Under the pieces are notes generated by a model, which was not told where the DNA came from, did not search any database, and saw nothing but the letters and a program-made list of their open reading frames with translations. A stretch of DNA of 64,000 nt from Candidatus Nitrosopumilus sp. (GTDB taxonomy: Archaea > Thermoproteota > Nitrososphaeria > Nitrososphaerales > Nitrosopumilaceae), in assembly GCA_013215285.1 (NCBI GenBank), contig JABSRD010000007.1:1-64000 (forward strand), in the 5' to 3' direction. Each line of letters opens with the position of its first letter. The first letter of the stretch is position 1. Of this stretch, positions 32,962-53,583 are shown one piece after another. The position numbers and the translations under genes are program-made.

Positions 32962-34278
32962 TTGAAAAGTTCTGTTTGGCACCCAAACACCCAGATGAAA
33001 GAATGGGGTTCTTTTGATAAAATTACTAGTGCCAAAGGGGTGTGGTTAATTGATTCTAAGGGAAATAAAATGATTGATGGGGTCGCATCAATGTGGTGTA
33101 ATGTCTGGGGACATTCCAATCCTCAACTAGTAAAAGCAATCACCACTCAAAGCAAAAAACTGCAACATTCATCCATGTTTAATCTTACAAACGAGCCTGC
33201 AGAACAATTAGCAGAAAAATTAGTAAAAATATCTCCTGGAATGTACAAGGTATTCTATTCAGATAATGGTTCATCTGCAATGGAGATTGCAATAAAAATT
33301 GCTTTACAATATTGGAAAAATATTGGTGAGAAAAAGAAAACAGAAATTGCCACAGTAAAAAATGGATACCACGGGGATACGTTTGGAGCAATGTCAGTAG
33401 GATATGTTCCAGAATTTTTTGGTAAATTTAAAAAACAATTATTCTCAACCATACAATTTCCAGTTCCAAACAAATACAGAACACCAAAAGGATTTACCAT
33501 TTCAGACTATCAAAATTATTGTTTAGATAAAATTGAAAATAAATTATCAAAAAATAACAATATTGCAGCTTTTATCATGGAGAGTGGTGCACAAGTTGCA
33601 GGCGGCGTAATTATTTATCCAAAAGGATTTCAAAAAAAGATCAGCCAATTATGTAAAAAATATGGTGTGTTGTTTGTTTTAGATGAAATTGCAACAGGTT
33701 TTGGACGATTAGGATCTATGATACAATATGAAAAACAAAAAAGTATTCCAGACATTGTATCATATGGAAAAATGTTAACTGGGGGATATCTAACAATGGC
33801 TGCAACATTAACTAACAAGAAAATTTATGATTCATTTTTAGGTGAATTTAATGACTGGAAACATCTATTTCATGGTCACACATACACTGGAAATCCAATT
33901 GCTACAGCAGTAGCTAATGAAAATCTCAAAATGTATCAAAAGAATCATTTGATAAAAAAGATTCAGAAAACATCGAAAATATTTGAAAAATTCTATCAAG
34001 AAATTTCAGAAATTGATATTGTTGGAGACATCAGACACAAAGGGATGCTGATGGGAATTGAATTAGTAAAAAACAAAGCAAGAAAGACTCCAATTAATCC
34101 TAAAAAATCAATAAACAAGATATTTTTTGAAGAGGGTAAAAGGAATGGAATCTATCTTAGAACACTTGGGAATATAGTCATGCTTGTTCCACCATTAGCA
34201 ATTTCAGAAAAAGAGCTAAATTTGCTCCTAAATAGAACCATAAAAACAATCAAAGCTGCAAGATCAAAGGTAATTTGA
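32962..34278 (+). CDS. bioA: adenosylmethionine-8-amino-7-oxononanoate aminotransferase BioA
   Basis: BioA transfers the SAM amino group to KAPA, giving DAPA. The N-terminal SVWHPNTQM motif matches family VWHPFTQM and supports TTG at 32962 as the start. DEIATGFGRLG carries the PLP Asp region, and the Schiff-base Lys lies in SYGKMLTGGYL. Length 438. A BirA-type operator lies immediately after its stop, before bioB. Confidence 0.93.
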   Translation: MKSSVWHPNTQMKEWGSFDKITSAKGVWLIDSKGNKMIDGVASMWCNVWGHSNPQLVKAITTQSKKLQHSSMFNLTNEPAEQLAEKLVKISPGMYKVFYSDNGSSAMEIAIKIALQYWKNIGEKKKTEIATVKNGYHGDTFGAMSVGYVPEFFGKFKKQLFSTIQFPVPNKYRTPKGFTISDYQNYCLDKIENKLSKNNNIAAFIMESGAQVAGGVIIYPKGFQKKISQLCKKYGVLFVLDEIATGFGRLGSMIQYEKQKSIPDIVSYGKMLTGGYLTMAATLTNKKIYDSFLGEFNDWKHLFHGHTYTGNPIATAVANENLKMYQKNHLIKKIQKTSKIFEKFYQEISEIDIVGDIRHKGMLMGIELVKNKARKTPINPKKSINKIFFEEGKRNGIYLRTLGNIVMLVPPLAISEKELNLLLNRTIKTIKAARSKVI

Positions 34279-34280
34279 CT

Positions 34281-34308
34281 GTTAACCCCCCAAATCTCTA
34301 AGGTTAAC
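34281..34308 (+). promoter_or_regulatory. BirA-type operator before bioB
   Basis: GTTAACC (34281-34287), a 14-nt spacer, then GGTTAAC (34302-34308) form a perfect dyad. This spacing and the half-sites match the bacterial/archaeal biotin repressor (BirA) signal described for biotin regulons. It starts 3 nt after bioA and ends 13 nt before the GTTATAAAC TATA box of bioB, 42 nt from its ATG. A regulator would therefore control bioB-bioF. BirA itself is not in the window. Confidence 0.75.
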
Positions 34309-34320
34309 CTTTCCATTATT

Positions 34321-34329
34321 GTTATAAAC
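34321..34329 (+). promoter_or_regulatory. bioB TATA box
   Basis: GTTATAAAC lies 21-29 nt before the bioB ATG, the placement expected for a leaderless archaeal gene. Confidence 0.55.
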
Positions 34330-34349: not shown

Positions 34350-35327
34350 ATGAGTGCTCTAGAATTTATCAAAGAGTGTCAAGAAAAAGTGTTTTCAGGA
34401 ATTGGTGTTTCTTCAGATGATGCTAAAAAATTATTTAACATTCCAGATGAGAGTATTCAAGATTTAGCAGAATGTGCAAATGAGATTACTAGAGATTTTA
34501 ATGGTGACAAAGTAGATGTTGAACAAATAAACAATATTAAAAAAAATGCATGCAGTGAGGATTGTACATTTTGTGGACAATCAGCATTTTTTGATACAGG
34601 TATTGAGACATATCAATTGCCAACTCCACAAGAAGTAGTTAGTAAAGCACAAAAAGCAAAAGACGAAGGTGCTGAATCATATTGTTTGGTTGCTGCATGG
34701 AGAGAGCCATCAGTAAAAGATTTTGAAGGTGTTTGTAAAATTATTACAGAAGTTAATGATAAGGTTGGAATAAGTATAGAGTGTAGTTTAGGTTTTCTCA
34801 CTAAACAACAAGCAGAAAAACTAAAAGAATTACATGTAAAAAGATATAATCATAATTTAGAGACTGCAAAATCAAAATTTGCAGAAATTTGTACAACGCA
34901 CACATATGAAGATAGACTAAAAACATTAGGGATTGCAAGTGATGCAGGATTAGAATTATGCACTGGTGGAATCATTGGTCTTGGTGAAACAAGAGCACAA
35001 AGATTAGAGTTGTCATTAGAATTAGCTAGATTATTTCCTGAAGAGGTAACAATTAACATACTAGTTCCAATTCCTGGAACTCCACTAGAATTACAAACTA
35101 ATCTTGCAGAGTCTGAAATTATCAGAATATTTTCAGTTATTAGATTTCTATTACCTGAATCAGTAATCAAAATTTCTGGAGGTCGGGAAGAAAAGCTAGA
35201 TGATTCAGGAGAAAAATTACTTCAAAGTGGAGCTAATGGAATTATTACTGCAGGATATCTAATTTTAGAAGGAAATGAGCCTGAAAAAGACCGTAAAATG
35301 ATAGAAAAAATTGGCCTCAAAGCATAA
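34350..35327 (+). CDS. bioB: biotin synthase BioB
   Basis: This radical-SAM enzyme inserts sulfur into dethiobiotin. The 4Fe-4S cluster cysteines are in CSEDCTFCGQS (CxxxCxxC, about residue 70). Further family motifs are CSLGFLTKQQ, RYNHNLETA and GGIIGLGETRAQR. Length 325. ATG start. Its final 17 nt overlap bioF, so both are on one transcript controlled by the upstream BirA-type operator. Confidence 0.95.
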   Translation: MSALEFIKECQEKVFSGIGVSSDDAKKLFNIPDESIQDLAECANEITRDFNGDKVDVEQINNIKKNACSEDCTFCGQSAFFDTGIETYQLPTPQEVVSKAQKAKDEGAESYCLVAAWREPSVKDFEGVCKIITEVNDKVGISIECSLGFLTKQQAEKLKELHVKRYNHNLETAKSKFAEICTTHTYEDRLKTLGIASDAGLELCTGGIIGLGETRAQRLELSLELARLFPEEVTINILVPIPGTPLELQTNLAESEIIRIFSVIRFLLPESVIKISGGREEKLDDSGEKLLQSGANGIITAGYLILEGNEPEKDRKMIEKIGLKA

Positions 35328-36462
35328 ACTCAACTTTATTGATTCCAAGATACGAGAAATTAGAAAAAATAATCTCTATAGAAAATTACAGTATGGAAAA
35401 ACACAAGGCTCACACATTACAATTAATGGTAAAAAATTACTCAATTTGTGCTCAAATGACTATCTAGGAATACCAACTAGCACAATTCAGATTAAGCAAT
35501 TACAATCAAGTTCAAGACTAGTTTCAGGAAACGATGAATCATACAAAAAGCTAGAAAAAAGTCTTGCAAAACACAAATCACAACAAAACAGTTTGATTTT
35601 TCCTACAGGATATATGGCAAATCTTGGAGTAATTTCATCTGTTGCACAAAAAGGAGATGTAATTCTTAGTGATGAGTTGAATCATGCCAGTATCATTGAG
35701 GCATGTAAGTTATCAGATGCAAAAGTTACAATTTACAAACATAATGATATGGATGATTTACAAAAGAAACTAAAAGTAAAAGGAAAAAACAAGTTTATCA
35801 TTACTGAAGGGATATTCAGCATGGATGGAGATTTTTCATCACTAAAACAAATTACAGAAATTGCAGAAAAAAGCAAAGCAATTACAATTGTAGATGATGC
35901 ACACGGGGACTTTGTTGTGGGGAGTGATGGAAAGGGAACACCAAATTATTTTAGAGTGTCAAAGAAAATTGATGTATACATTAGCAGTCTAAGTAAAGGA
36001 CTAGGATCATTTGGTGGGTATGTTGCATCACAAAATAATGTAATTGATTTATGTATTAATAAATCAAAATCATTTATCTACACATCTGCACTGCCATCAT
36101 TTCTAATTAATTATACAACAAAGAGGTTTGAATCAAACAGAGAAAGACAAAAAATAAAACTAGAAAAAAATATCAAACAACTGTCAACTGGTCTAAAACA
36201 AATTGGGTTTAAAATTAATTCAAAAACACATATCATTCCAATAATTATCGGAAATGAAAAAACAGCAATGGACTTTGGTAAATTCTTAAAAGATAATGGG
36301 GTATTTGCACAACCAATCAGATATCCCACAGTTCCAAAAAATCAAGCAAGGTTACGAATTTCAGTTACTGCATGGCTAACTGCAAATGACATTGAATCCG
36401 CCTTGAATGTTTTTGAAAAGGCGTTAAAAAAATTCAGAACAATACAGTCCAGTTCATCTTAG
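35311..36462 (+). CDS. bioF: 8-amino-7-oxononanoate synthase BioF
   Basis: A PLP enzyme that condenses pimeloyl-thioester with alanine to KAPA. LCSNDYLGIP near residue 47 is the family signature; DDAHGDFVVG and SSLSKGLGSFGG (Schiff-base Lys) are present. Length 383. TTG at 35311 is the first start, overlapping bioB by 17 nt; an internal start is not excluded. The window shows no recognisable bioC, bioH or bioW for the pimeloyl part. Confidence 0.93.
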   Translation: MASKHKLNFIDSKIREIRKNNLYRKLQYGKTQGSHITINGKKLLNLCSNDYLGIPTSTIQIKQLQSSSRLVSGNDESYKKLEKSLAKHKSQQNSLIFPTGYMANLGVISSVAQKGDVILSDELNHASIIEACKLSDAKVTIYKHNDMDDLQKKLKVKGKNKFIITEGIFSMDGDFSSLKQITEIAEKSKAITIVDDAHGDFVVGSDGKGTPNYFRVSKKIDVYISSLSKGLGSFGGYVASQNNVIDLCINKSKSFIYTSALPSFLINYTTKRFESNRERQKIKLEKNIKQLSTGLKQIGFKINSKTHIIPIIIGNEKTAMDFGKFLKDNGVFAQPIRYPTVPKNQARLRISVTAWLTANDIESALNVFEKALKKFRTIQSSSS

Positions 36463-45590: not shown

Positions 45591-45701
45591 ATGGCAGAAA
45601 GAAAAAACTTCTTACGATTAGCTATCGGAATGGGTGGTGTAGGTATTATTATTGGAATCTACACAATGTGGAATATGTTATTAGAAGTGTTAGAACCGTA
45701 A
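45591..45701 (+). CDS. 36-aa single-pass membrane mini-protein
   Basis: The frame encodes MAERKNFLRLAIGMGGVGII then IGIYTMWNMLLEVLEP. A basic N-terminus, one hydrophobic helix and an acidic end. It starts 1 nt after the SPOUT gene stop, so it is probably in the same operon. Function is unknown. Confidence 0.55.
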   Translation: MAERKNFLRLAIGMGGVGIIIGIYTMWNMLLEVLEP

Positions 45702-45716
45702 CAATTTAGGAATAGT

Positions 45717-45748
45717 TGGTTAACCACCAAATAACTATTGGTTAACCA
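45717..45748 (+). promoter_or_regulatory. BirA-type dyad operator upstream of rpl3
   Basis: Two TGGTTAACCA palindromes lie 22 bp apart (45717-45726 and 45739-45748). Read as a dyad they give GTTAACC (45719-45725), a 14-nt spacer, and GGTTAAC (45740-45746), the same half-sites and spacing as the site before bioB. It ends 12 nt before the TATA-like TTTAATAG, so a regulator could act on the ribosomal operon promoter. The binding protein is inferred, not shown. Confidence 0.6.
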
Positions 45749-45760
45749 TGTCTCACATGG

Positions 45761-45768
45761 TTTAATAG
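45761..45768 (+). promoter_or_regulatory. rpl3 operon TATA-like box
   Basis: TTTAATAG is centred about 30 nt upstream of the rpl3 ATG at 45794, the expected TATA position for a nearly leaderless transcript. Confidence 0.5.
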
Positions 45769-45793: not shown

Positions 45794-46789
45794 ATGGGAG
45801 CTCGTAAACGACATTCACCACGTAGAGGAAGTCTTGCATATTCACCTAGAATACGTGCAAAAAGCATGGAAGCAAGAATTCGAGCATGGCCAAAACTAAA
45901 TTCAGATGAACCAAAAATTCTAGCTCATTGTGGTTTCAAAGCAGGGTGTGTCCAAGTTGTAAGTATTGATGATCGTGATAAAACACCAAATGCAGGAAAA
46001 CAACTTGTAAGTCTTGGAACAGTACTTGTAACTCCACCAGTATTGATTTTAGGAATTAGAGGATATTCAAAAGATCACACCGGATTACATGCAGAGTTTG
46101 ATGTGTATGCAGAGGATATTCCAAAACACATCGCAAAAGAAATTTCACTAAAAAATAATGATAAAGATGCAGTAGACAATGCAGAGAAAAGATTAAAGAG
46201 AATTAAAGAAATATTTGCAATCGTTGCAGTATCACCACGTTCTGCAGGGTTGGAACAAAAAAAGCCATATATTTTTGAAGCATTAGTTAGTGGCGGGGAT
46301 ATACCAAAACAATTTGCTCACGTTAAAGAAGTTCTAGGAAAAGAAATAAAGATTGATCAAATTTTTGAGACAGGTGTAACAGTAGATGTTGCAGCAATTA
46401 CTAAAGGTAAAGGATGGCAAGGTGTAATTCAAAGATGGGGTGTAAAAAAGAAACAACACAAATCAAGAAAGACAGTAAGAGAAGTCGGTTCACTGGGTCC
46501 AATTTCACCACAGAGTGTCATGTATACAGTTCCAAGAGCTGGACAAATGGGATTCCATCAAAGAACAGAATATGATAAACGAATTTTGGTAATGGGTAAT
46601 ACTAATGATGAAAAAATAAAAATTAATCCAGATGGTGGATACAAACACTTTGGATTAGTTAAAGGAGACTTTATCATTCTAAAAGGATCAGTTCCAGGAA
46701 CGTATAGAAGATTAATCAAACTAAGAAGTCAAATCAGAAATGCCCCAGCAAAAGTTAAGAAACCAAATATTTTGGAGGTAGTCATATGA
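45794..46789 (+). CDS. rpl3: 50S ribosomal protein L3 (uL3)
   Basis: The 331-residue archaeal/eukaryotic-type L3 begins GARKRHSPRRGSLAYSPRIR and contains the conserved TKGKGWQGVIQRWGVKKKQHK loop region (KGKGWQGVIQRWG) that reaches the peptidyl transferase centre. First gene of the ribosomal cluster; its stop overlaps the L4 ATG by 4 nt. Confidence 0.97.
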   Translation: MGARKRHSPRRGSLAYSPRIRAKSMEARIRAWPKLNSDEPKILAHCGFKAGCVQVVSIDDRDKTPNAGKQLVSLGTVLVTPPVLILGIRGYSKDHTGLHAEFDVYAEDIPKHIAKEISLKNNDKDAVDNAEKRLKRIKEIFAIVAVSPRSAGLEQKKPYIFEALVSGGDIPKQFAHVKEVLGKEIKIDQIFETGVTVDVAAITKGKGWQGVIQRWGVKKKQHKSRKTVREVGSLGPISPQSVMYTVPRAGQMGFHQRTEYDKRILVMGNTNDEKIKINPDGGYKHFGLVKGDFIILKGSVPGTYRRLIKLRSQIRNAPAKVKKPNILEVVI

Positions 46790-47601
46790 TGAAAACTACA
46801 ACTTACACAGCTACTGGGACAAAAGACGGTGAAATAGAACTTCCACTAATATTTTCAACTCCATTTAGAAGAGACTTGATTCACAAAGCTTTCACTAATT
46901 TAACATCACACAAATTCCAACCACAGGGAAGACATCCAAGTGCAGGTCAAGATGTAGTTGCAGACTCAAATGATCCTCCAACAGGTCAAGGTGTATCTCG
47001 TGTTGCCAGAATGCAAGGTGGTGGTGGCGGAAGACAAGGTCAAGGTGCAGAAGTTGCATCAACTAGAAGTGGAAGACAAGCACATCCACCAATTGTAGGT
47101 AAAGTAATTTACAAAAAATTAAACAAAAAAGAGAATAAACTAGCATTATGTTCTGCAATTGCTGCAACTGCATCAAAAGAACGTATAGCATTTAGAGGTC
47201 ATAAAATTGAAGGAATCGAATCATTCCCGATGGTAATATCTGATGACATTGAATCAGTTACTAAAACAAGTGAAATGACAAAAATTCTAGAAACACTAAA
47301 TCTTACACAAGATGTCAAAAGACTAGACGCAAGAAAACCACGTTCTGGACAATCAAGACTTAGAGGTAGAAGTAAAAAAGTAGGAAAAAGTGTTTTGTTT
47401 GTAACTAAAGATGTATCAAATTTATCAAAAGCAGTAGGTACAATTCCAGGAGTAGAAGCAAGAAATGTTAAAGATTTAAGCATACTAGATTTGGCTCCAG
47501 GGTCTGATCCAATTAGATTAACAGTGTATTCCAAATCAGCAATTGAAGAGATTGGAAAAATAAAATCAACACATTTGGAGATAATGGTGAAAAAACAATG
47601 A
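46786..47601 (+). CDS. rpl4: 50S ribosomal protein L4 (uL4)
   Basis: The 271-residue protein has the long Gly/Arg-rich internal loop (RVARMQGGGGGRQGQGAEVA) that lines the exit tunnel, and TRSGRQAHPPIVGKV. It is coupled by overlap to L3 and to L23. An alternative ATG lies one codon later. Confidence 0.95.
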   Translation: MMKTTTYTATGTKDGEIELPLIFSTPFRRDLIHKAFTNLTSHKFQPQGRHPSAGQDVVADSNDPPTGQGVSRVARMQGGGGGRQGQGAEVASTRSGRQAHPPIVGKVIYKKLNKKENKLALCSAIAATASKERIAFRGHKIEGIESFPMVISDDIESVTKTSEMTKILETLNLTQDVKRLDARKPRSGQSRLRGRSKKVGKSVLFVTKDVSNLSKAVGTIPGVEARNVKDLSILDLAPGSDPIRLTVYSKSAIEEIGKIKSTHLEIMVKKQ

Positions 47602-47864
47602 ACATAGATCAAGCAATGAGAATTATTGTGAAACCATACATTACAGAAAAAACATTTGCAATGGTTGAAAATGAAAGTAAGATTTGTTTTATTGTAGAGA
47701 GATCAGCTAAAAAACCTGAAATTGCAGAAGCAGTAATGACACTTTACAATGAAAAAGTCATCAAGGTGAACACTGCAAGAACAATTTATGGTAAAAAGGC
47801 AATTGTTCAATTTCAAAGTACTGACAAAGCAAGGGATTTGGCAACAAAGATAGGAATGCTATAA
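47598..47864 (+). CDS. rpl23: 50S ribosomal protein L23 (uL23)
   Basis: The 88-residue protein shows the L23 core (IIVKPYITEKTFAMVE, VERSAKKPEIAEAV, VKVNTARTIYGKKAIVQF). It binds near the tunnel exit and helps dock SRP. ATG overlaps the L4 stop by 4 nt. The gap to S19 (44 nt) holds no rpl2, which usually follows here. Confidence 0.95.
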   Translation: MNIDQAMRIIVKPYITEKTFAMVENESKICFIVERSAKKPEIAEAVMTLYNEKVIKVNTARTIYGKKAIVQFQSTDKARDLATKIGML

Positions 47865-47908
47865 TATGGACCGTAAAATTTCAAGAACAACAACAGGAGA
47901 GATGAAAA

Positions 47909-48304
47909 ATGGTTAAAGAATTTTTGTACAGAGGTATTCCAAATCAAGAATTAGAAAGTTTGTCACTAGAAAAATTATTCCAAATATTCAATTCCAGACA
48001 AAGACGATCACTCACCAGAGGAATCACAGATGGAAAAAGAAAATTAATTGAAGAAATAAAGTCTGCAAAAGCAGGAAAATTAAAAACTCCTATCAAAACT
48101 CATTTGAGAGATTTGATTGTTCTACCATATATGGTTGGTGTTACAGTAAATGTTTTCTCAGGAAAAGAATTTCGACCAGTGTTAATCAAAACTGAAATGA
48201 TTGGTCATTATTTGGGGGAATATGTCATAACTAACAAAAAGGTCTCACATGGTGCACCAGGTGTGGGAGCTTCAAGATCCAGTCTGTATGTGCCATTAAA
48301 GTGA
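47909..48304 (+). CDS. rps19: 30S ribosomal protein S19 (uS19)
   Basis: The 131-residue archaeal S19 has YRGIPNQELESLSLEKLFQ and the signature VFSGKEFRPVLIKTEMIGHY with LGEYVITNKKVSHGAPGVGA. GGAGAG ends 8 nt upstream of the ATG at 47909 and lies inside a 16-codon frame (47866-47916) that is probably not meaningful. Confidence 0.96.
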   Translation: MVKEFLYRGIPNQELESLSLEKLFQIFNSRQRRSLTRGITDGKRKLIEEIKSAKAGKLKTPIKTHLRDLIVLPYMVGVTVNVFSGKEFRPVLIKTEMIGHYLGEYVITNKKVSHGAPGVGASRSSLYVPLK

Positions 48305-48309
48305 TTATT

Positions 48310-48768
48310 ATGAGTAGATTCAAGTACGCTTTCCAAAATTATGATGCAACAAGACATGTACGTTCATCATTAAGAGAAAAAGACATTTCACACAAACATG
48401 CACGTGAAGTAGCAGTTGCAATCAAAGGATTGTCAATTGACAAAGCAAGAGATTACTTGATGGCAGTGATTAACAAAGAAAGAGCAATTTCATTTGGACG
48501 ATTCAAAAATCAAGTAGGACACAAATCAGATCCTGGAATGATGTCAGGACGTTATCCACAAAAAACAGCAAAAGAATTCATCAAAGTTTTAGATAATTTA
48601 GAATCAAATGCAGAATACAAAGGAATGGATTTAGATAGATTGAGAATTATAAATGCAACTGTTCACAAAGGAGTAACGGTAAAGAGGTTCATCCCAAGAG
48701 CAATGGGAAGAGCAACTCCAAAGAATGATGTACTAACACATGTAGAATTGGTGGCCCAGGAGATTTAG
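48310..48768 (+). CDS. rpl22: 50S ribosomal protein L22 (uL22)
   Basis: From the ATG at 48310 the protein has 152 residues, with [19 protein letters not shown] at the start and RRF-like tunnel loop [20 protein letters not shown] at the end. An in-frame GTG at 48301 overlapping the S19 stop by 4 nt is an alternative start. Confidence 0.95.
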
Positions 48769-48770
48769 AA

Positions 48771-49538
48771 ATGTCTGCAGTGAAAAATGTAATTAAAGAT
48801 AACTACAACATGATGCTTCTCAAAGATTATCTAAGAAAAGCAATCAAAGATGCAGGATTTTCACATGCTGAAATATCAAAAACACCAACAGGTACTAGAG
48901 TTGCATTACATGTAACAAGACCAGGTATAGTTATTGGGAGAAAAGGTTCTGGAATTAGAGAACTAACAGAAAGACTTGCAACAGACTTTGGATTAAAAAA
49001 CCCACAAATCTCAGTTGTCGAGATTGAAAAACCAGATTTATCACCAAGTGTAATGTGTAATAGAATGGCATCACATCTTGAACGTGGAACAGCATTTAGA
49101 AGAGCAACAATGTGGACATTAAAACAAATTATGGAAAGTGGTGCAATGGGAGTTCAAATTACAATTTCTGGAAAACTTAGAGGCGACCGTTCAGCATTTG
49201 AAAAACATACACAAGGAATCTTGCCAAGAGCAGGTCATCATGCAGAAGTTATTGTAGATGAAGACATTGCACACGTAAAAACAGCAATGGGTTTAATCGG
49301 AATCAGAATTAGAATTGCAATTAAAGAAAAGTTAATCCCTGAATTTGAAATGATTACAGAGAAACCAAAGAAAGGTAAAGACAAGTCTGAAAAGAAAGTA
49401 GACACTGAAAAGAAAGTAGACACTGAAAAGAAAGTAGATCCAACTAGAGCAAAATCAGAAACAGAACAAATCAATATTGAAGAAGAAAAAATGAAGACTG
49501 TTGACACCATGGAAGAAGAGGAGGCCAAATTGAAATGA
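48771..49538 (+). CDS. rps3: 30S ribosomal protein S3 (uS3) with repeated acidic-basic tail
   Basis: Residues 1-195 are normal S3: the KH domain with [14 protein letters not shown] and the C-terminal domain with [21 protein letters not shown] tail of about 60 residues follows, containing three repeats of EKKVDT encoded by an 18-bp tandem repeat from 49389, and ending in acidic residues. The tail is likely disordered. ATG lies 2 nt after the L22 stop. Confidence 0.95.
49389..49440 (+). repeat. 18-bp tandem repeat in rps3
   Basis: The unit GAAAAGAAAGTAGACACT occurs at 49389-49406 and 49407-49424 exactly, and in a partial third copy from 49425. It encodes EKKVDT and could vary in copy number between strains. 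Confidence 0.85.
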
Positions 49539-49741
49539 CCAGAATTAGCATGAAGACAATTGGCAATCTAAATGATAAAGATCTTAAAAAAAGAATTCAA
49601 GAAACAAGAAGTGAACTTGCAAAACTTAGAGTTGATGGTTCTAAAGGTACATTACGAAAAGAAAGTGGTAAGCTAAAACCATTACGTCATGATATTGCAA
49701 GAATGTTAACTGGATTAAATGGGAGAACCGAGAAGAAATGA
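49535..49741 (+). CDS. rpl29: 50S ribosomal protein L29 (uL29)
   Basis: The 68-residue helical hairpin protein has [21 protein letters not shown] and [14 protein letters not shown]. It overlaps the S3 stop by 4 nt and the Rnp1 start by 4 nt. Confidence 0.93.
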
Positions 49742-50004
49742 TTACAGCTGATAACATCACATCACATGAATTCATAGGATTAGACACAGAGATCACACAA
49801 TCAACAAATCCCCAAGTAGTAGGATTAAATGGAAGGATTATCAATGAAACAAAATCGATGTTCACAATAAATACCGATAAAGGCGTAAAATCAATTGCAA
49901 AATCCCAAAATATTTGGAAATTCTCAATTGATAATCAAGATGTAATAGTTGACGGAACAAAAATTGCAAAAAGACCATTTGATAGAATTGGAGGAAAGAA
50001 ATGA
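49738..50004 (+). CDS. rnp1: ribonuclease P protein component 1 (Rnp1/Pop4-like)
   Basis: The 88-residue protein matches the archaeal P29 subunit: the Sm-like beta barrel with GLDTEITQSTNPQVVGLNGR and NETKSMFTINTDKGVKSIAK. It joins RNase P RNA to mature tRNA 5' ends. The location between L29 and S17 is the standard archaeal position. Confidence 0.92.
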   Translation: MITADNITSHEFIGLDTEITQSTNPQVVGLNGRIINETKSMFTINTDKGVKSIAKSQNIWKFSIDNQDVIVDGTKIAKRPFDRIGGKK

Positions 50005-50324
50005 CACTTAATATCGGATTAAAAGTAAATGCGCCAAAAAGAGAATGTGAAGATATTCACTGTCCATTTCATGGAAATCTCTCAATTAGAGGAAAACTCT
50101 TTGATGGAAAAGTTACAGGTAGTAAAGCCAAACAAACAATCACATTACAAAAAGAGTCACCAATTTACTTTAGTAAATTCAAACGATATGCAAGAGGTAA
50201 AAGCACAATTCATGCACACGTTCCAGGTTGTATTGATGTAGAATCTGGAAACCATGTGTTAACTGCAGAGTGCAGGCCAATCTCAAAATCAGTATCATAT
50301 GTTGTTGTGGAGGTTAAAGCATAA
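50001..50324 (+). CDS. rps17: 30S ribosomal protein S17 (uS17)
   Basis: The 107-residue archaeal S17 has CPFHGNLSIRGKLFDGKVTG and the conserved FSKFKRYARGKSTIHAHVPG region. It overlaps Rnp1 by 4 nt and L14 by 1 nt. Confidence 0.95.
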   Translation: MTLNIGLKVNAPKRECEDIHCPFHGNLSIRGKLFDGKVTGSKAKQTITLQKESPIYFSKFKRYARGKSTIHAHVPGCIDVESGNHVLTAECRPISKSVSYVVVEVKA

Positions 50325-50746
50325 TGGCAAAGCAAGCAGGTAAAGGGGTACAAGAATTCCGTCCATACGTTACAAGATCAATTCCAGTGGGCGCACAAAT
50401 TGTATGTGCAGATAATTCAGGTGCTAAAATTTTAGAAGTAATCAATGTTCCAAGACATAAAACAAGAGCATCAAGACTTCCAGCAGCAGCTGTTGGAGAC
50501 TATTGTAATGTTGTAGTAAAGAAAGGACCAGCAGAGTTAAGAAAACAAGTGTATGGTGCAGTTATTGTTAGACAAAAATATGCAGTTCGAAGATTAAACG
50601 GTACAAGAGTTTGTTTTGAAGATAATGCAGCAGTATTAATCACTCCAGAAGGAGAAACAAAAGGAACAGACATCAAAGGACCAGTTGCAGCAGAAGCTAC
50701 AGAAAAATGGCCAAGAGTAGCTAACTTGGCATCAATGGTGGTATGA
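50324..50746 (+). CDS. rpl14: 50S ribosomal protein L14 (uL14)
   Basis: The 140-residue protein has [40 protein letters not shown] and [20 protein letters not shown], all L14 hallmarks. It lies in the middle of the overlapping ribosomal transcript. Confidence 0.96.
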
Positions 50747-50750
50747 TAAA

Positions 50751-51218
50751 ATGAAACCAACAAAAATGCGCAATCAAATGATTTATCAGGCAACATTCCA
50801 AACAAGAAGTAAACAACTTGGAAGTGCATTATCAAAAGACTTGCATAAGAAATATGGTAAACGAAGTGTCCGTGTAATTGAAGGAGACAGTGTAACAATC
50901 CTTAGAGGGGAATTCAAAGGAGTTGATGGTAAAATTTCAAAAATATCTACAGAAAAAACTAGTGTTGCAATAGATGGAGTAAAAAAAGAAAAAACAAAAG
51001 GTGAGAAATTTGATGTTTACATTCATACATCAAATCTAGTAGTAACTTTGCTTAATTCCAGTGATAAATGGCGAATTGCAAAACTTGAAGGAAAAGATCC
51101 AAGAAAACAACCTAAAATTCCAGAAAAAGAAGCACCAAAGAAAGAAGAACCAGTAAAAGTCGAATCTAAAGAAACAAAAGTGGCTGAGAAAACCACAAAA
51201 AAGGAAGTTGAGAAATAA
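50751..51218 (+). CDS. rpl24: 50S ribosomal protein L24 (uL24)
   Basis: The first 110 residues are archaeal L24, including [20 protein letters not shown] (KOW motif). The tail of about 40 residues is Lys/Glu/Pro-rich and low in complexity ([18 protein letters not shown]), like that of S3. It overlaps S4e by 1 nt. Confidence 0.94.
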
Positions 51219-51934
51219 TGGTAAGTATTGCAGGAAGTAAAAAACTCAAACGTCAAATGGCTCCACAGTTCTGGGGAATTGCCAGAAAAGCAAAAAGATT
51301 TGTAATTACAGTAAAACCAGGTCCACACAAAAAAAGTGAGTCTATTCCAACAGCAGTATTTCTAAGAGACACATTAAACTTAGTTACTACTCTTAGAGAA
51401 GCAAAAACTGCAATATATTCAGGTAAAGTAAAAGTTGATGGAGTTGTAAGAAAATCACTTCATCATGCAATTGGACTAATGGATGTAGTTGAATTAGAAA
51501 ATGTACCAGAAATTTATCGTCTAGTTCCAACACAGGGAAAACTTCTAAAACCAATTACAATTAATGACTCAGAAAAAACAAAAAAACTTGTTAGAGTGTC
51601 TAGTAAAACTACAATCAATAATGGAAAAACACAAATTGGATTCCATGATGGTCGTTCAATTATTTCAGATGAAAAACTTAATGTTGGCGATACTTGTTTG
51701 ATACAAATTCCAGAAATGAAAATTATCCAAGTAATAAAATTAGAAGCAGGTTCTAAAGGTCTAGTAGTTAGAGGGACTAACGCAGGACAAATAGGTAATA
51801 TTGAAACTGTAGAAGAAGGAACATTCATTCTTCCAAAAAGAGTTATTCTTACATTAGGTGAAAGAAAAATCGAAATTCCAGCTGAACTAATAATGCCAAT
51901 AGGTAAAGGGGAACCAGTAATTCAATTACAGTGA
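51218..51934 (+). CDS. rps4e: 30S ribosomal protein S4e
   Basis: The 238-residue protein matches archaeal/eukaryotic S4e: GSKKLKRQMAPQFWGIARKA, an S4-like RNA-binding stretch (AKTAIYSGKVKVDGVVRKSL), and a C-terminal KOW-like region. Found only in archaea and eukaryotes, it supports the archaeal assignment. Confidence 0.95.
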   Translation: MVSIAGSKKLKRQMAPQFWGIARKAKRFVITVKPGPHKKSESIPTAVFLRDTLNLVTTLREAKTAIYSGKVKVDGVVRKSLHHAIGLMDVVELENVPEIYRLVPTQGKLLKPITINDSEKTKKLVRVSSKTTINNGKTQIGFHDGRSIISDEKLNVGDTCLIQIPEMKIIQVIKLEAGSKGLVVRGTNAGQIGNIETVEEGTFILPKRVILTLGERKIEIPAELIMPIGKGEPVIQLQ

Positions 51935-51938
51935 TAAT

Positions 51939-52460
51939 ATGTCTCAAACAACAGAATCCCCAATGCGAAAAATATCTTTAGAGAAGATAGTTATGAACAT
52001 GGGTGTAGGTAAATCTGGCGATGCAATTGAAATTGCAAAGAACGCATTACATCAAATTGCAGGAAAAAAACCATCATCACGTAATGCACGAGAAACACAA
52101 AGAGATTGGGGAATAAGAAAAGGTGAAGCAATCGGTGCAGCAGTAACTATTAGAGGTGAAGATGCAGTGGCACTAGCAAAAAGATTGTTTGAAGCAAAAG
52201 GAAATATCGTTAAAGGTAAATCATTTGATAATTTTGGAAATTATTCATTTGGAATTAATGAACACATCGACATTCCAGGAGTAAAGTATGATCCACACAT
52301 CGGAATTTTAGGTCTTGGAATTTCAATGACATTAGCTAGACCAGGTTTTGGAATTAGAAAAAGAAGTAAACACAAAGTGAGTATTGGAAAAGCACATACA
52401 ATTTCAAGTCAAGAAGCAAAGGATTATCTAGTAAAAGAGTTTGGAGTGACAGTAGAATAA
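51939..52460 (+). CDS. rpl5: 50S ribosomal protein L5 (uL5)
   Basis: The 173-residue L5 has EKIVMNMGVGKSGDAIEIAK, a 5S-rRNA-binding loop, and DIPGVKYDPHIGILGLGISM. An internal ATG at 51963 (MRKISLEK) is a possible shorter start. Its stop overlaps the S14 start by one nt. Confidence 0.95.
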   Translation: MSQTTESPMRKISLEKIVMNMGVGKSGDAIEIAKNALHQIAGKKPSSRNARETQRDWGIRKGEAIGAAVTIRGEDAVALAKRLFEAKGNIVKGKSFDNFGNYSFGINEHIDIPGVKYDPHIGILGLGISMTLARPGFGIRKRSKHKVSIGKAHTISSQEAKDYLVKEFGVTVE

Positions 52461-52639
52461 TGCCTAAAGATAGATCATACGAATTTACTGGAAGAAAGAA
52501 ACATGACTTTGGTAGAGGATCAAGATGGTGTAAAAGATGCGGAGATTATACAGCAGTTATTCAAAAATATGATTTAATGTTATGCAGACGATGTTTTAGA
52601 GAAGTTGCAGTGTCTTTGGGGTTTAGGAAAAATCGGTGA
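52460..52639 (+). CDS. rps14: 30S ribosomal protein S14 (uS14), zinc-binding
   Basis: The 59-residue S14 has GRGSRWCKRCGDYTAVIQK then LMLCRRCFREVA, giving two CxxC pairs (zinc form). It ends SLGFRKNR, a strong S14 C-terminus. It is too short for many length cutoffs but is clearly real between L5 and S8. Confidence 0.95.
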   Translation: MPKDRSYEFTGRKKHDFGRGSRWCKRCGDYTAVIQKYDLMLCRRCFREVAVSLGFRKNR

Positions 52640-52643
52640 TATT

Positions 52644-53036
52644 ATGCCTTCAACTAATGTTTTAGCAAATCTGTTTGTTACACTATACAATAACGAAGCA
52701 CGAAGAAATACATCATGTATAGTACTCCCAACTTCAAAACTAGGAATTGAAGTTCTAAAAACACTTCAAAAAGATGGCTATGTGGGTGAATTTGAGCATA
52801 TTGATGATAAAAGAGGCGGAAAATGGAAAATAAAGCTATTAGCAAAAATTACAAAATGTGGAGCAATTTCTCCAAGATTCAAAGTAAAAAATGACGAGTT
52901 TAACAGTTGGGAGCAACAATATCTACCAGCATATGATAGAGGAATGCTTCTAGTTACAACAAATCAAGGCGTAATGTCTCACCATGAAGCAACAGAAAAA
53001 GGAATTGGAGGATTTTTGATAGGATATGTCTACTGA
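52644..53036 (+). CDS. rps8: 30S ribosomal protein S8 (uS8)
   Basis: From the ATG at 52644 (MPSTNVLANLFVTLYNNEAR) the protein has 130 residues and the C-terminal signature TTNQGVMSHHEATEKGIGGF. An open frame 13 codons longer overlaps S14 and is less likely. It overlaps L6 by 11 nt. Confidence 0.95.
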   Translation: MPSTNVLANLFVTLYNNEARRNTSCIVLPTSKLGIEVLKTLQKDGYVGEFEHIDDKRGGKWKIKLLAKITKCGAISPRFKVKNDEFNSWEQQYLPAYDRGMLLVTTNQGVMSHHEATEKGIGGFLIGYVY

Positions 53037-53583
53037 GCAACTCGAAAAATTTCAAGACGAAGTAGAAATTCCAGAAGGGGTTACAGTTACACAAACAAAA
53101 CACATGTTATCGTTTGTTGGTCCATTAGGTAAGACATACAAAAGTTTTAGAAGAATTCCAGTGGATATAGAAATTAAAGATAACAAAGTGATTCTAAAGT
53201 CAAAAGAGTACAAAAAAAAGGACTATGCAATTTTACATACTGCAAAATCCATCATTAGAAATATTTGTGAAGGTCTAATTATCGGGTATTCAATTAAAAT
53301 GAAAGTTGTATATGCACACTTTCCAATTACAGTAAAAATTGAAGGGAAAACAATCATAATTGAGAATTTTCAAGGAGAACGGGCACCAAGAAAAACACAC
53401 ATTGTCGGAAACACCAAAGTTATTCCAAAAGGTGATGACGTACTTCTTACTGGAGAAGTTTGGACAGATATTACACAAACTGCTGCCAACATTGAATTAA
53501 AGACCAAGGTGAAAAACAAAGATCACAGAGTATTCTTAGATGGTATCTATGGATATGAAAAGAAAAAAGGCATAGACAAGTAA
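53026..53583 (+). CDS. rpl6: 50S ribosomal protein L6 (uL6)
   Basis: The 185-residue L6 has two repeated domains, PEGVTVTQTKHMLSFVGPLG and the C-terminal VKIEGKTIIIENFQGERAPR. It is the last ribosomal gene of the cluster; the usual archaeal continuation (L32e, L19e, L18, S5, L30, L15, secY) is absent. Confidence 0.95.
   Translation: MSTEQLEKFQDEVEIPEGVTVTQTKHMLSFVGPLGKTYKSFRRIPVDIEIKDNKVILKSKEYKKKDYAILHTAKSIIRNICEGLIIGYSIKMKVVYAHFPITVKIEGKTIIIENFQGERAPRKTHIVGNTKVIPKGDDVLLTGEVWTDITQTAANIELKTKVKNKDHRVFLDGIYGYEKKKGIDK

Follow-up and report, generated by a model that had tools for sequence, protein, structure and literature searches.

The window, that is, the whole 64,000-nucleotide stretch of DNA analysed here, carries a group of biotin genes and a ribosomal-protein cluster headed by rpl3. 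The promoters of bioB and rpl3 contain the same dyad, GTTAACC-N14-GGTTAAC, each followed by a TATA-like box. The features are as follows.

32962..34278, + strand: bioA-like class III aminotransferase, ending directly 5' of the bioB dyad (Pfam PF00202)
34281..34308, no strand: candidate dyad operator before bioB, GTTAACC-N14-GGTTAAC (from sequence; dyad in 62 of 81 family bioB upstream regions)
34322..34328, + strand: bioB TATA-like box TTATAAA (from sequence)
34350..35327, + strand: bioB, biotin synthase (Pfam Radical_SAM and BATS)
35311..36462, + strand: bioF-like aminotransferase (Pfam PF00155)
45717..45748, no strand: candidate dyad operator before rpl3, T-G-GTTAACC-N14-GGTTAAC-C-A, core at 45719-45746 (from sequence and clade conservation)
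45761..45767, + strand: rpl3 TATA-like box TTTAATA, within a conserved GGTTTAWTA block (from sequence)
45794..46789, + strand: rpl3, ribosomal protein L3, head gene of the ribosomal-protein cluster (Pfam PF00297, E 1e-71)
46786..53583, + strand: remainder of the cluster as identified so far, L4, S19, L22, S3, S17, L14, L24, S4e, L5 and L6 (Pfam)

The rpl3 dyad lies in the intergenic stretch 5' of the gene. It is exact at 45719-45746; the span given in the preliminary description, 45717-45748, adds a flanking T and A that are conserved at rpl3. The same description held that the half-sites and spacer repeat those of the bioB site, and the copy at 34281-34308 is indeed exact. The gap between the dyad and the TATA-like box, put there at about 12-13 nt, is 13 nt at bioB, but 14 nt at rpl3, as read from the sequence. 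The bioB dyad starts immediately after the bioA stop codon (34278-34281 of the window) and the operator is therefore inside the bio cluster. In genomes of genus g19 the bioB dyad is situated between divergent bioA and bioB.

Positions 45591-45701 on the + strand, between a gene for a SPOUT-type methyltransferase and the rpl3 dyad, hold a short 36-codon open frame that includes a hydrophobic stretch (MAERKNFLRLAIGMGGVGIIIGIYTMWNMLLEVLEP). A stretch resembling it seems to be present upstream of rpl3 in a g3 genome (L145).

BirA and the dyad at bioB

The only gene in the genome with a biotin ligase domain (PF03099) encodes BirA. The protein matches BPL_LplA_LipB with 75 bits and BPL_C with 30 bits, both above the Pfam cut-off, and its N-terminus matches HTH_11 with 49 bits (cut-off 25). 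From residue 14 on, and so for nearly the full length of the protein, it aligns with BirA repressors of solved structure. Judged by these matches, the ligase is of Group II, with its N-terminal HTH intact.

The published BirA consensus is TTGTAAACC-[N14/15]-GGTTTACAA (PMC545781). Set against GTAAACC-N14/15-GGTTTAC, both window sites have the same frame and spacing and differ by one base per half-site (GTTAACC/GGTTAAC); the likeness to the BirA operator repeat is one of architecture, not of letter identity. In the 62 bioB upstream regions of the family that carry a dyad, the left half-site is GTTAACC or GTAAACC, the spacer is 14-16 nt long, and the right half-site is GGTTAAC or GGTTTAC. At bioB, GTAAACC-N14-GGTTTAC is exact in most members of g6, g9 and g21.

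The HTH has been lost or has degenerated in eight genomes (G015, G033, G049, G004, G026, G006, G010 and G023), and none of the eight has a bioB dyad, although in G010 the readable sequence upstream of bioB is limited to 90 nt. The rpl3 dyad is likewise found in none of the eight HTH-less genomes in which the rpl3 upstream region was read. Within genus g2, G001 retains both the HTH and the bioB dyad, whereas its sister G023 is without either. The reverse exception is G016, where the HTH is intact and no site was found. Loss or decay of the HTH is recurrent, having taken place in about five lineages (g5, g7, g11, g15 and G023; L228-L236), and these constitute a natural series for the loss of the regulator.

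The half-site sequence also varies with the recognition helix. A helix with the motif SRVA is accompanied by GGTTAAC, one with SRAA mostly by GTAAACC/GGTTTAC. Exceptions include g20, which has SRTA; g3, g12, g17 and g22 have one half-site of each type. The SRAA genera are related, and therefore the number of independent helix/half-site events is small. By four tests, namely the fit to the consensus, the presence of an HTH-bearing ligase, absence of the dyad where the HTH is lost, and co-variation of helix and half-site, the bioB dyad is very probably a BirA operator.

Occurrence of the dyad in the genome and the family

The preliminary description found no other such dyad in the window, and this extends to the entire genome (1.66 Mb, 99% complete), where GTTAACC-N14-GGTTAAC has two exact copies, the ones before rpl3 and bioB already noted. 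There are no N14 copies with one mismatch and four with two mismatches, giving six matches at up to two mismatches compared to ten for a reversed-pattern control. None of the four is at a plausible promoter, and they were rejected as operators. Spacers of 13-17 nt yielded no additional sites in this genome. Spacers of 13-17 nt and a looser core, TTAACY-N14/15-RGTTAA, were also discarded: their matches were nearly always fewer than those of the control and, when positions alone were compared, no extra place visibly recurred. A third conserved target of the dyad was not found in the genomes scanned.

The exact dyad is present in 41 of the 151 Nitrosopumilaceae genomes, compared to a single genome for the reversed pattern, which puts it far above the chance frequency that the preliminary description had set as a check. 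All 30 exact-match loci read across the family are at one of two promoters, 12 at bioB and 18 at rpl3, and for most places read there are two exact sites per genome. In some of the genomes behind the 12 bioB loci the dyad separates divergent bioA and bioB genes.

No close relative read was without the rpl3 dyad, a point that the same description had asked to be checked. It was found in every sampled genome of g1, g4, g13, g14 and g18, with 13-14 of the 14 core bases matching and a spacer that is exactly 14 nt long. At least 12 of the 14 core bases are matched at N14 in 76 of 80 named rpl3 records, among which are Nitrosopumilus and Nitrosarchaeum species. In a tree of BirA, a single supported clade (99/97) unites the rows of g1, g4, g14 and g18; g13 is not in the tree. 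The 100 distinct rpl3 promoters of the Nitrosopumilus/Nitrosarchaeum clade have a near-invariant GTTAAC/GTTAAC and a spacer whose length is always 14, while its sequence is free apart from being AT-rich. The flanks are a T at -2 and an A at +29, each conserved to 99%. An alternative description of the site as a tandem palindrome (GGTTAACC repeated 22 nt apart) was rejected, because only on the inner side of each GTTAAC is the adjoining base conserved.

The rpl3 upstream regions read in other genera that retain the BirA HTH lack the dyad, so the link between rpl3 and BirA is clade-specific. A lone GGTTAAC is located between the TATA box and the rpl3 start in g3, g6, g8, g12, g17, g19, g21 and g22 (e.g. 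L144, L162, L172 and L173). It takes the form GGTTTAC in g6, g8 and g21, and matches the right half-site of each genus's bioB dyad. In g17, a near half-site, GTTATCC/T, precedes the lone motif by 15 nt, and the pair therefore spans the TATA box.

Outside the family, a class sample scanned with the GTTAACC pattern had no site at rpl3 or bioB. The matches that did occur there (G190, G204 and G218) were not accepted as the same operator, because they are not at either gene. An exact GTTAACC-N14-GGTTAAC is also common to two genomes of another family, with a near-identical spacer (TTTTGTTC.AGCG), at positions 1501-1528 of both loci (L363 and L364), away from bioB and rpl3. This shared dyad seems to be a separate conserved element or else a repeat.

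Candidate control of the ribosomal-protein cluster

The rpl3 dyad is likely to be a true operator of the organism's own Group II BirA, which would hence control the promoter that heads the main ribosomal-protein cluster as well as the biotin genes. If so, it follows that one biotinyl-AMP-sensing protein would preside over the biotin genes and the rpl3 cluster, and ribosome synthesis is probably tied to biotin or carboxylase status. The biotin enzyme of these archaea is the CO2-fixing acetyl-CoA/propionyl-CoA carboxylase (PMC3732383).

In the scheme that we infer for binding, ligand dependence and direction of control, biotinyl-AMP would build up once the carboxylase is fully biotinylated, and BirA would dimerise. 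The dimer would occupy the dyad, roughly 14 to 42 nt before the TATA box and adjoining the BRE, and would impede recruitment of TFB/TBP, so that transcription of bioB and of the rpl3 cluster would fall together. New apo-carboxylase would drain biotinyl-AMP and release both promoters. In the E. coli system, accumulation of biotinyl-AMP is a sign of a fully loaded carboxylase and low demand. The direction of control is presumed to be the same at bioB and rpl3 because the two sites have the same position relative to the TATA box. We lean slightly towards repression, because repression is what BirA does at the biotin operons for which it has been described (PMC545781) and because accumulated biotinyl-AMP marks a loaded carboxylase.

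Activation by the same protein is possible, with BirA bound upstream of the BRE and recruiting TFB/TBP at both promoters. The distance from dyad to TATA box is constant at the two promoters, and archaeal sites upstream of BRE/TATA usually activate, e.g. those of TrmBL1/Tgr, Ptr2 and TFB-RF1 (PMC4158304); these precedents make activation a serious rival. However, activation runs against the described behavior of BirA at biotin operons, and biotin switching bioB on would be positive feedback. The usual activation from such a position is thus awkward to reconcile with feedback repression of bioB.

The preliminary description left two options, that BirA or a relative also acts at ribosome genes, or that the bioB site is one of the sites of a wider regulator. 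The first is favored, since the dyad tracks the BirA HTH both in its presence and in its half-site sequence. The second would have a protein other than BirA recognize GTTAACC-N14-GGTTAAC and co-control bioB and rpl3. An identical motif before two unrelated functions, at the same position relative to the TATA box, would agree with such a protein, as would the flank bases and spacer rule, which are unlike between the two sites. Nevertheless, in about five losses of the BirA HTH the bioB dyad has gone with it, and the half-site sequence of the dyad follows the BirA recognition helix. Because no further conserved targets were found in the genomes scanned, the protein does not appear to be a wide regulator, and this option is unlikely.

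Nitrosarchaeum and the wider significance

The BirA reading of the rpl3 dyad can be compared in Nitrosarchaeum (g14) with the idea that only the bioB site is a BirA operator, and that a second protein, sharing the core by coincidence, binds at rpl3. The flanking T and A are 99% conserved at rpl3 only, and the spacer is strictly N14 there compared to N14-16 at bioB, features that could reflect another protein or a tuned affinity. In Nitrosarchaeum, however, the dyad is absent from all eight bioB regions read and is retained at rpl3. A zero-mismatch search with GTWAACY-N14-RGTTWAC in six of these genomes returned only the rpl3 site, and one-mismatch matches were fewer than in the control. The dN/dS ratio from a codon alignment of Nitrosarchaeum BirA is nevertheless 0.025 for the HTH compared to 0.109 for the ligase domain. 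The corresponding values in g1, where both sites are present, are 0.031 and 0.119. Given that rpl3 has the one consensus site left in the six genomes scanned, selection on the Nitrosarchaeum HTH would go unexplained without BirA there; a second protein is accordingly very unlikely. That the genome is AT-rich and that three-mismatch matches are common in the window might suggest a chance resemblance or a generic promoter element, but this is refuted by the conservation (two exact genome copies, both at promoters; 41 compared to 1 of 151 genomes; 30 of 30 loci at bioB or rpl3; near-invariance in 100 distinct promoters) and has a negligible probability.

Since the bioB dyad is lost and the HTH is still under strong purifying selection, retention of the Nitrosarchaeum HTH is most simply explained by its having the rpl3 dyad as target. 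G013 and G129 share the pattern, having kept the rpl3 dyad and lost that at bioB. In G129, a Nitrosopumilus genome, the bioB gene that has lost its dyad (L115) has the opposite orientation to bioA and bioF. We put at about even the chances that BirA of Nitrosopumilus and Nitrosarchaeum is a ribosome regulator which in Nitrosarchaeum has no biotin-gene operator, its HTH being maintained solely for the rpl3 cluster and ribosome synthesis tracking biotinylation of the CO2-fixing carboxylase.

The arrangement is similar to the known BirA regulon of Group II ligase/repressors in half-site architecture, the 14/15 spacer, the HTH-bearing ligase, the bioB site and the number of sites, one or two per genome. 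It differs in that most of these archaea have GTTAACC, not GTAAACC, and in that the conserved target besides bioB is a ribosomal-protein cluster instead of a gene for biotin or a carboxylase. In E. coli O157, ChIP-seq placed BirA outside the biotin genes, at the fur promoter, with 55 further candidate sites in that one species (PMC4382993). A non-biotin promoter is likewise the predicted target here; however, it is a single full-operator site at ribosomal genes, conserved in a clade and known from sequence. The archaeal regulators of the TrmBL1/Tgr and Ptr2 type (PMC4158304) also have operators immediately upstream of BRE/TATA, but belong to another protein family and use another motif. In the literature searched, no regulator of an archaeal ribosomal-protein operon linked to BirA was found.

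The strict conservation of a biotin-gene switch at rpl3 in marine ammonia-oxidizing archaea suggests that their biotin sensor also governs ribosome production. If this is true, a vitamin-loading enzyme would set the output of ribosomes in a microbial group that is among the most abundant in the ocean, and an archaeal ribosomal-protein operon would have a concrete, testable transcriptional regulator.
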